A DNA stretch of 64,000 bases from Pseudanabaena sp. Chao 1811 (GTDB lineage Bacteria > Cyanobacteriota > Cyanobacteriia > Pseudanabaenales > Pseudanabaenaceae): NCBI RefSeq assembly GCF_027942295.1, contig NZ_CP101416.1:1178001-1242000 (forward strand), read 5' to 3'. Shown piece after piece: positions 42,261-45,102 of this stretch. The translations under genes were made by a program, and so were the position numbers. Under the pieces are notes generated by a model that made no database searches, was not told where the DNA came from, and saw only the letters and a list, made by a program, of their open reading frames with translations. Position 1 is the first letter of the stretch. Every line of letters begins with the position of its first letter.

Positions 42261-42599
42261 TCATGCAACGGCAAAACCTGTATATTGTCGAACCTTTGGA
42301 TGACGAAAACCGAGGACAATATCACTTTTGGACACACCTGCATCTATTAAGTCGGTTACTATTCCTTCTTCAGTATCATCATACTGAATCCAGATTTTGT
42401 CATTGACTAGGCTCAGATGAATGGGAGTATTGTGAAGATACTGATCATCATTCCAGCCAATGTCGAGAACTAGATATTGACCGCGCTCATCATCAAACAA
42501 GAGTTGAGATGTATAAGCATCAGGAATTGTAGAGCGATATTCAGCGTGGTTTTGGAGTACTTGTTTAATGATCTGACGATATTTTAATTGGGTATCCAT
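42261..42599 (-). CDS. xisI: XisI-like protein
   Basis: A 112-aa protein with the XisI pattern: LKYRQIIKQVLQNHAEY, DERGQYLVLDIGWNDDQYLHNTPIHLSLVNDKIWIQYDDTEEGI and VLGFRHPKVRQYTGFAVA. XisI was named as a controlling factor of fdxN element excision in Anabaena. The family is far wider than heterocyst formers and sits next to xisH, as here, so a TA-like or nuclease-linked role is plausible. Its start overlaps the end of xisH by 16 bases. Confidence 0.92.
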   Translation of the reverse strand: MDTQLKYRQIIKQVLQNHAEYRSTIPDAYTSQLLFDDERGQYLVLDIGWNDDQYLHNTPIHLSLVNDKIWIQYDDTEEGIVTDLIDAGVSKSDIVLGFRHPKVRQYTGFAVA

Positions 42600-43101
42600 T
42601 GGACAATTACCTCACTTTCATCATCAAAAACAATTAATTTTATAATCTGATTTGTAAGTAGGATCTCCCCTAATTGTATCGTGAATATGCTTTTGAAGGT
42701 TAAGCGGGAGACTGCAAGATAAAGTTCTCTATCAATTTTTGTCTCGTTAAGGATTTGACGATACAAAATATACTGTCCTAAAGCTTGCTCTAAGTCTTTA
42801 ACATCAGACTGACCTACGAAGCTTTTTATTTGAACTAAGAGGGTAAATACCCCACCGCTCTGCGGTGTGAGTATATTCTAGTAAAAAAGAATTTGATACC
42901 CCGTCCGCTTGCGGCGGGGTGATTCATTTCAACTACAATTTTTTGAAGGTTCTTTTCTGCACTGATGAGACGTTCTGCTCCCAAGTCAACAGATAAACGC
43001 TTTTTCCCTATTTGTAATGGAAATGGATCGTGGGTAATTGTCCAGCCATCTTTTTCTAGGGCTGTTTTGACGGTGTTGTGGTAAATATCTCTTGCTGGCA
43101 C
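42584..43101 (-). pseudogene. xisH: XisH-like gene split by a mini-element
   Basis: The N-terminal part (MPARDIYHNTVKTALEKDGWTITHDPF...LGAERLISAEKNLQKIVVE) and the C-terminal part (KSFVGQSDVKDLEQALGQYILYRQ...IVQWIPN) are in different frames because of 98 extra bases at 42828-42925. Without them the gene has exactly 140 codons and reads KIVVEIKSFVG, the conserved PD-(D/E)xK-like E-x-K motif of XisH. The insertion therefore cuts the catalytic motif. Confidence 0.9.
42828..42925. mobile_element. 98-bp IS200/IS605-like mini-element (no transposase)
   Basis: It lies between two ATTT copies (42828-42831 and 42926-42929). It holds one hairpin near each end: CCCACCGCTCTGCGGTG and ACCCCGTCCGCTTGCGGCGGGGT. 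Subterminal palindromes of unequal sequence, without inverted terminal repeats, are typical of IS200/IS605 ends. There is no coding capacity, so it is a non-autonomous palindrome-carrying element. Confidence 0.8.
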
Positions 43102-43136
43102 AAGTTAAAAGTGTGAAGTTGTACCTGTCAGTATAT

Positions 43137-43182
43137 GAGATCGCCTTTTACTTACTGATAGGTTTATGAGTGGGGCGATCGC
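43137..43182. repeat. Repeat A, HIP1-bracketed (copy 2)
   Basis: GAGATCGCCTTTTACTTACTGATAGGTTTATGAGTGGGGCGATCGC, a near copy of 42195-42241. Confidence 0.7.
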
Positions 43183-43267
43183 TTAAATATAAGAATCAAA
43201 ATCCTTTAGCTTATTTGACCGATTATACAAAATTTTATATAATCTTGACAAAGTTGAATATAAAGTT

Positions 43268-43591
43268 ATGACAATTAAGTTTTACGAGAGTCCTTTTCAT
43301 GCGATCGAGGAGCCTGAAGTTGCGAGTAAGTCGGTTTTAAAGGCTGACTTGACGATCATGATTCGCGACATAATTGAGAATAGAGGTTGGACTCAGAAAG
43401 AGGCTGCTGAAAGGTTGGCAGTTACTCAGCCGCGTGTGTCGGACATTGTGAATGGAAAAATTGATAAGTTTACTTTGGATATGTTGTTTTCGATGCTCGA
43501 TAAGCTGGGGTTTAGGACTGAGTTTACTTTTAGCAGTTTAGAAAGTGCTTCTATTAAAATCCAAACAAGGGATTTAGCTGAAGTCGCTTAG
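43268..43591 (+). CDS. XRE-family antitoxin-like regulator
   Basis: A 107-aa protein. The helix-turn-helix is clear in WTQKEAAERLAVTQPRVSDIVNGKIDKFTLDMLFSMLDKLG. Its N-terminal FHAIE..... and C-terminal tail fit the HigA/'COG5606' antitoxins that pair with RelE/HigB toxins. No intact toxin is adjacent; a RelE-like N-terminal fragment points the other way just downstream. Confidence 0.85.
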   Translation: MTIKFYESPFHAIEEPEVASKSVLKADLTIMIRDIIENRGWTQKEAAERLAVTQPRVSDIVNGKIDKFTLDMLFSMLDKLGFRTEFTFSSLESASIKIQTRDLAEVA

Positions 43592-44097: not shown

Positions 44098-45102
44098 AAC
44101 GTGAGTTCGACGGAGTAGACAGAAGCAAAAGAAAAGCTGAGACTAGGTTTGAAGCAAAAAAGGTCTCAGCAATATGAACAATATCGTATCGCACTTAGAT
44201 ATCACACGAATCTTCTGTGAAGTAGATGATTTTTGCCAAAGTTTTGAAAAACACTGGGAAGAGCAACCAATGTTGCCATCAATGATAGGAGAAAGAAAAA
44301 GTCGTTCCAGAATGAGACTGAGTGAAGTGATGACGATAGCGATCGCCTTTCATGGGTCAGGATATAAAACCTTCAAAGAGTTCTATACCCTAACTGTAAT
44401 ACCGTTTTGGCGAAAAGCTTTTCCGCACTTAGTAAGCTACACCCGTTTTGTCGAGCTAATGCCTTGGACAATGATGTTGTTATGTTGCTTTCTCCATACC
44501 CGTAAAGGAGAAGTAACAGGGATATCATTCATTGACTCCACGCCAATAAATGTCTGTGTCCCTTGCCGCGCCCACGCTCACAAAGTATTTAAAGGAATGG
44601 TCAATTGGGGCAAAAACTCAGTCGGATGGCACTTTGGTTTCAAACTACATTTGATTATTAATGACAAAGGGGAATTGCTTGCTTTCAAACTCACACCAGC
44701 CAATGTCGATGACCGTGAACCTGTGCCTGAGATGGCTCAAGACCTCTTTGGTCAATTGTTTGGTGACCGTGGTTATATCTCCCAAAAGTTGTTTGAAAAG
44801 CTCTATGAACAAGGTTTGCAACTGATTACCAAGCGCAAGAAAAATATGAAAAACTGTCTGGTCAAGTTGATTGACAAAATTCTGCTTCGCAAGCGCGCAA
44901 TTATTGAGTCCGTCAATGACCAACTCAAGAACATTTCTCAGATTGAGCATTCTCGTCATCGCAGCTTTTTCAATTTTCTCGTTAATCTTCTTGCTGGCTT
45001 AGTTGCCTATACCTATCGCCAGTCTAAACCTGCTTTAGATCTTCAGCCTAAAGGCTTGCCTGCTCTTCCTCCTGCCATCTTTTAGTTCGTCGAACTCACG
45101 TT
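44098..45102 (+). mobile_element. IS982-family insertion sequence
   Basis: The element is 1005 bp with perfect 15-bp inverted ends AACGTGAGTTCGACG and a 6-bp target duplication GTAGTT (44092-44097 and 45103-45108). One intact transposase gene is inside. Confidence 0.93.
44174..45085 (+). CDS. IS982-family transposase
   Basis: A 303-aa complete DDE transposase. Asp residues lie in SFIDSTPINVC and QLFGDRGYIS, and the Glu in RAIIESVNDQLKNISQIEHSRHRS, a box characteristic of IS982. No frameshift or stop; probably functional. Confidence 0.93.
   Translation: MNNIVSHLDITRIFCEVDDFCQSFEKHWEEQPMLPSMIGERKSRSRMRLSEVMTIAIAFHGSGYKTFKEFYTLTVIPFWRKAFPHLVSYTRFVELMPWTMMLLCCFLHTRKGEVTGISFIDSTPINVCVPCRAHAHKVFKGMVNWGKNSVGWHFGFKLHLIINDKGELLAFKLTPANVDDREPVPEMAQDLFGQLFGDRGYISQKLFEKLYEQGLQLITKRKKNMKNCLVKLIDKILLRKRAIIESVNDQLKNISQIEHSRHRSFFNFLVNLLAGLVAYTYRQSKPALDLQPKGLPALPPAIF

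Follow-up and report, generated by a model that had tools for sequence, protein, structure and literature searches.

In IS608, as described in PMC5934647, cleavage sites are recognised by base pairing with a guide located 5′ of each hairpin: base 1 of the guide pairs with site position −3 and base 2 with position −4. From the guide and site sequences given there we derived a further pairing, of guide base 4 with position −1. Mobile units without a transposase gene are described from Haloquadratum, whose PATEs carry palindromes near both ends and have no terminal inverted repeats (PMC3119063), and a PATE-like unit is described from Halanaerobium (PMC7290912). The Haloquadratum report records strain-specific PATE insertions in strain C23 although all 15 tnpA genes of that strain are disrupted (PMC3119063). 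In REPIN/RAYT systems, short hairpin elements are thought to be moved in trans by a Y1 enzyme, and REPs flank the rayt gene in inverted orientation (PMC2817692). IS200 and a MITE are reported from Microcystis (PMC11448079) and a TnpB gene from a Pseudanabaena phage (PMC7431792); in the open-access literature we found no paper joining Pseudanabaena, insertion sequence and MITE.

Here we analyse a 98-bp element that lies in the gene xisH within a stretch of 64,000 nucleotides from Pseudanabaena sp. Chao 1811 (the window). The element is very probably a PATE, consisting of both ends of an IS200-type element but not its tnpA, and mobilised in trans by an IS200/IS605-type TnpA. Like the PATEs described from Haloquadratum (PMC3119063) and Halanaerobium (PMC7290912), it shows no target duplication and has ends resembling the IS605 type. 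Unlike them it is cyanobacterial and its ends are like those of tnpA-only IS200-type elements; here, moreover, the guide code is legible and insertions occur preferentially 3′ of hairpins. With IS608 and ISDra2, as presented in PMC5934647, it shares hairpin ends, a guide tetranucleotide 5′ of each hairpin, a left guide placed some 15 nt in from the left end and insertion 3′ of the target, whereas its 98 bp hold neither tnpA nor tnpB, GGG and CCC can pair around its left guide, and its family targets TTAT, TTAA, TCAA or TGAA rather than TTAC or TTGAT. REPIN/RAYT systems (PMC2817692) are alike in combining short hairpin elements with presumed movement in trans by a Y1 enzyme. The element is of a known kind, and natural recoding of the guide and the hairpin bias are the points at which it goes further.

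A precise insertion interrupts xisH

The interrupted xisH gene spans positions 42584–43101 on the minus strand, with its 3′ part at 42584–42829 and its 5′ part at 42928–43101. The Pfam XisH profile matches the two sides of the insert separately (profile positions 1–60 on 42835–43101 and 80–134 on 42584–42766, both on the minus strand), and the partner gene xisI is full length at 42261–42599 on the same strand (Pfam XisI, profile positions 1–110 of 110, 9.8e-40). The initial annotation had recognized an insert at 42828–42925 whose removal restores xisH, and the flanks joined without the 98 bp indeed form 420 nt, or 140 codons including the stop, encoding 139 amino acids from a GTG start. The joined frame reads ...QKIVVEIKSFVG..., in which VVEIKS is a putative nuclease catalytic motif, PD-(D/E)XK-like. 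ATTT stands at both 42828–42831 and 42926–42929, so the insertion can be placed equally well at five starts, 42828 to 42832; we place the element at 42830–42927 on the plus strand, the position picked by the guide/cleavage rule set out below. Judged by the left-to-right direction of IS200 ends, the element lies antisense to xisH. Elsewhere in the window, positions 44174–45085 hold a 303-aa open frame that looks by eye like an IS5-type transposase.

Empty sites, which the initial annotation had proposed as a check, are readily found. The element is absent from all 12 xisH relatives fetched, which come from 12 other Pseudanabaena genomes. The joined xisH flanks (299–300 nt) align to eight of the 12 without a gap and to the remainder with 1 to 8 gap letters; the gap-free loci show neither duplication nor deletion of target bases, and uninterrupted sites of other copies agree. 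xisI adjoins xisH in 11 of the 12 loci, and orthology with the xisH of the window is best supported for the locus in genome G025, the only one that also shares the neighbouring HTH gene. Because xisH is multi-copy, with six other full-length and two further partial XisH matches in the window genome, and because 11 of the 12 loci share no neighbours beyond xisI, some of these loci may be paralogues or moved copies. Among eight relatives compared, the target position reads TTAC in seven and TGAC in one, against TTAT in the window genome, so that a TTAT at this site before the insertion is presumed. For the host, the outcome is a broken xisH copy, one that is perhaps redundant.

Sister copies and empty sites record movement

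Other copies, also left as a check by the initial annotation, are present both in the same genome and in relatives. The window genome, a single contig of 4.73 Mb, holds three further copies at 99–100% over 98 bases, one copy at 77% and one left-end relic, and its copies stand in differing surroundings. Element matches, some of them to one end only, occur in 33 of the 97 genomes searched (own genome included) and in 19 of the 26 Pseudanabaena genomes. Among named genomes, the exact left-end pattern is found in 22 stretches, all from Pseudanabaena, Phormidium tenue FACHB-1050 or an uncultured cyanobacterium. Plasmids yielded one match, on the Pseudanabaena plasmid ABRG5-3 (83.5%); the element was not found in phage records, nor the exact left-end pattern in viral contigs. 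The comparisons below use 66 full copies from 65 places (five in the own genome, 20 and 40 elsewhere), one place being a tandem pair; matches covering fewer than 71 query letters were excluded.

The site occupied by the own-genome copy L009 is uninterrupted in G021 and retains TTAT, as do the uninterrupted sites for L073 (partial flank) and L077, and those for L224 and L201 retain TTAA, with one of the seven repeat copies shown for L224 differing. The target letters therefore belong to the target site. Sister copies and uninterrupted sites together establish that the element family has moved.

Individual copies have features of their own. In L081 (G021:C1:2201000-2202300) two copies stand in tandem, and the right-end TCAT of the first is where the second begins. 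L011 (G000:C1 ~4675935), a left end on its own that matches at 88% over 50 nt, directly follows what by eye is the apparent end of rplT, and has perhaps been reused as the rplT terminator. The right ends of L217, L234 and L233 are near-perfect palindromes, with AATGAATAACCCCG on one side and its complement on the other in L217 and L234, and look as though the 3′ arm had served as template for a new 5′ arm.

Two subterminal hairpins with guides and cleavage sites

The initial annotation described two subterminal hairpins, and these are upheld by the single-stranded fold of the element (−19.3 kcal/mol, whereas shuffled sequences average −8.6; z −5.0; none of 200 shuffles folds as well). On the plus strand, the left-end hairpin CACCGC-TCT-GCGGTG occupies 42853–42867 and the right-end hairpin CCCCG-T-CCGC-TT-GCGG-CGGGG, which has one unpaired T, occupies 42899–42919; counting G–T, each pair is kept in 59 to 65 of the 66 copies on the left and in 58 to 65 on the right. 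The left cleavage/target site TTAT (42826–42829, plus strand) lies in the flank, and the left guide AATA (42846–42849, plus strand) lies within a foot, GGGTAAATACCC (42841–42852, plus strand), whose GGG and CCC are able to pair around it; the three pairs, again with G–T counted, are kept in 57, 65 and 60 of the 66 copies. The right guide GATA (42895–42898) immediately precedes its hairpin, and the right cleavage site TCAT (42924–42927) lies within the element, both on the plus strand. In all, the element retains about 45 nt of an IS200 left end and about 40 nt of a right end. Its 98 bp are too short for a transposase, and the open-frame list shows no tnpA in it, in agreement with the lack of coding capacity reported earlier; it is not an insertion sequence of the IS200/IS605 family proper, as only its relatives carry tnpA.

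The ATTT on both sides of the insert in the window might be taken for a 4-bp target duplication, which would make the insert an ordinary MITE of about 94 bp, mobilised by a DDE transposase. Neither the terminal inverted repeats nor the target duplication of such a MITE is found, and we regard this origin as highly improbable. No inverted ends are visible by eye, as the initial annotation had stated, and uninterrupted sites hold a single copy of the target. Other copies share ATT at the right end and then continue with other bases (ATTA in L007, ATTG in L008 and L009), and the AATT subfamily, with TTAA on the left, still ends in CATT on the right (CATC in one copy). The ATTT borders noted at first are thus present on both sides but are not a target duplication: other copies read TTAT-T or TTAA-T on the left and a fixed TCAT-T on the right (the hyphen marks the junction).

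A host regulatory palindrome or RNA element, such as a terminator or REP, inserted by recombination would also have stable hairpins, and 55 of the 66 junctions do lie outside open frames of at least 400 nt. Such an origin is nonetheless exceedingly improbable in view of the exact insertion into a gene that other genomes have intact, the fixed ends and the target code; Rfam gave zero matches over 42500–43300.

Guides and cleavage sites covary between copies

Applied to the element, the IS608 rule predicts TTAT from the guide AATA and TCAT from GATA, which are the sites at its borders. Comparison across copies indicates that guide tetranucleotides and cleavage/target sites vary together as this rule predicts, with exceptions. 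When left sites are sought 11–17 nt upstream of the guide, AATA goes with TTAT in 50 of 54 copies of the 98-bp family, and AATT with TTAA in all six copies that have it, none of which has TTAT. Left ends beside tnpA starts combine AATT with TTAA (13/13), GATT with TCAA (5/5), AATA with TTAT (2/2) and CATT with TGAA (1/1). Among these 21 ends are six at G072 contig edges and also partial tnpA copies from G027. TTAT is absent in four of the 54 AATA copies. The search window includes the element tip, so other sites arise by chance in AATA copies (TGAA in 25, TCAA in 18 and TTAA in 10 of the 54).

On the right, GATA goes with TCAT in 52 of the 66 copies and 14 differ. A matching change, to AATA with TTAT, is seen in L010 of the own genome and in L225, and the same combination occurs in G028. 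Mismatches among the 14 include GATA with TTAT (two) and AATA with TCAT (one). In L064, AATA is not accompanied by a matching site in the usual position, and L056 has none; the tandem copy in L081 sits at TCAT, mismatching its guide. Complementarity of guide and cleavage site is accordingly found at both ends, with exceptions. Copies within one genome or subfamily share a guide by descent, and each insertion chose its site separately.

Relatives with tnpA and the source of the transposase

Elements with similar ends and a tnpA gene are present in relatives. G016 holds two of about 540 bp, whose left end is 86% similar over 44 nt and right end 87.5% over 40 nt to the 98-bp element, and the left-to-right direction of the latter is the direction of tnpA in its tnpA-bearing relatives. 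This close similarity of ends bears out the earlier reading of a non-autonomous IS200/IS605 derivative. The tnpA genes of the two G016 elements (L045 and L046) have an identical stop at codon 37, and the elements lie at separate locations; either a broken copy was moved or copied in trans, or the stop is subject to readthrough. In G061, G075, G027, G028, G073 and one G088 copy, ends arranged in the same way enclose an open tnpA frame of 142 to 158 aa. The TnpA proteins of G061, G075, G027 and G028 retain HVH together with a tyrosine in their C-terminal part; that of G073 has HVD. Two G088 copies were fetched, one with HVY, the other with HVP plus a stop at codon 4. G073 TnpA scores 127 bits with the NCBIfam IS200/IS605 transposase model (cut-off 55) and matches by sequence the ISHp608 transposase, whose structure is solved (2a6m), as well as others including 2fyx and 2xm3. 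Viral contigs contain two TnpA relatives at 61%, with the right guide/site combination GATA/TCAT. The TnpA subfamily of G016 is widespread, as relatives at 62–89% are found on plasmids of cyanobacteria and of distant bacteria, with hosts that include Candidatus Megaera, Pantoea stewartii and Piscirickettsia.

The initial annotation had supposed a TnpA encoded elsewhere and suggested looking for a full IS200/IS605 element with the same hairpin ends. Elements with closely similar ends exist in G016 and in other cyanobacteria, but none was found in the own genome, where a search with G073 TnpA (E ≤ 0.001) found no IS200-type TnpA in the assembly and TnpB gave no match. In the 26 Pseudanabaena genomes, of which drafts may be missing plasmids and repeats, the search gave no intact TnpA that is closely related: the close relatives in the genus are those of G016, with the stop, and a 70% fragment in G020, and distant open TnpA frames at 28–32% occur in G001, G003, G005, G018 and G022.

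The own genome does encode three Y1 proteins, all with best scores as REP-associated tyrosine transposases (NCBIfam REP_Tyr_transpos), one above the cut-off of 80 at 177.6 and two below it at 77.4 and 68.3. These proteins, in a genome where no IS200-type TnpA was found, would suit a REPIN-like unit mobilised by a chromosomal RAYT. We judge this improbable, because the ends resemble those of tnpA(IS200)-bearing elements and, being distinct and ordered left to right as in IS200, are not inverted in the manner of the REPs that flank rayt (PMC2817692), and because G021, G017 and G024 contain 11, 5 and 2 element matches and gave no Y1 match at E ≤ 0.001.

For a PATE served in trans by an IS200/IS605-type TnpA, the strand chemistry can be pictured by analogy with IS608 and ISDra2. 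A TnpA of this type (Y1, HUH), acting in trans, would have bound both hairpins on the top strand and cleaved 3′ of TTAT at the left end and 3′ of TCAT at the right end through pairing with the guides AATA and GATA. The single strand would then have moved as a circle and been joined 3′ of TTAT in the xisH strand, with no target bases duplicated or deleted. The simplest reading is that the transposase came and went, as in Haloquadratum (PMC3119063).

Insertions in Pseudanabaena are enriched at sites 3′ of hairpins

For the analysis of insertion sites we used the 59 insertions with a clear junction, excluding seven of the 66 copies that have no recognisable TTAT or TTAA junction; by ungapped comparison of 60-nt flanks, none of the 59 is orthologous to another. 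A hairpin was counted if it had at least 7 bp, G–T allowed, and ended no more than 12 nt upstream. Such a hairpin precedes 34 of the 59 Pseudanabaena insertions, 33 of them with at least 10 bp, and the mirror test on the right flank gave three hairpins of at least 7 bp and none of at least 10 bp. In the window, 20 of 246 TTAT-T sites have a hairpin, and a second background, flanking DNA of the genus, predicts 11.7 hairpin insertions, the backgrounds being one 64-kb window and flanks. A stricter first test, with Watson–Crick pairs only, gave 30 of 66 against one of 66 right flanks, and a background of 14 in 422 TTATT sites (5 in 113 noncoding ones). Copies with the AATT guide show the same preference (5/6). 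In G016 the script detects a hairpin for L046, and for L045 one can be seen by eye a little farther off. No upstream hairpin accompanies the xisH insertion.

The target hairpins look like transcription terminators, and some are parts of high-copy repeats. The left flank of L009, in the own genome (G000:C1 ~4470005-4470156), contains a different high-copy double-hairpin repeat of about 107 bp, with many copies among the matches listed for that flank and an occurrence in several Pseudanabaena genomes. Another high-copy palindromic repeat of the genus, about 100 bp long, forms the left flank of L224 (G017:C25); here an AATT-type copy sits in the TTAA of the repeat, and uninterrupted repeat copies exist.

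The bias could arise from survival, with insertion at TTAT being random and copies beside intergenic terminators being kept, and we give this account an even chance. A same-strand open frame ends within 150 nt upstream of 22 of 37 hairpin copies against 9 of 29 copies without a hairpin, and outside the genus just one of 19 left ends beside tnpA has a hairpin, as survival would allow. The bias nonetheless exceeds what noncoding location predicts, 12 of 109 noncoding TTAT-T sites in the window having a hairpin against 34 of the 59 insertions (Fisher 2.5e-10), and a T-run-matched expectation is 9.9 hairpin insertions, with a maximum of 22 in 5000 draws. Tentatively, and with rather less than even confidence, we propose instead that the Pseudanabaena elements read two signals, a four-base guide for TTAT or TTAA and an upstream hairpin, where the strand would probably be single, as an extruded cruciform or as the non-template strand at a terminator. 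The elements might hence land where they are least harmful, and in one lineage the guide may have been naturally recoded (AATA versus AATT), with a corresponding switch of target (TTAT versus TTAA) and the hairpin preference kept. Among open-access papers, we found no report in titles or the opening lines of abstracts of hairpin or terminator targeting by IS200/IS605 elements.

Together, these elements present a natural case of a DNA-guided target code, in which related elements with different guides at the predicted targets support the IS608 pairing rule in a further branch of the family. Two questions follow: what mobilised the elements in genomes where the search gave no intact TnpA of close kinship, and whether single-strand transposons land preferentially at hairpins.
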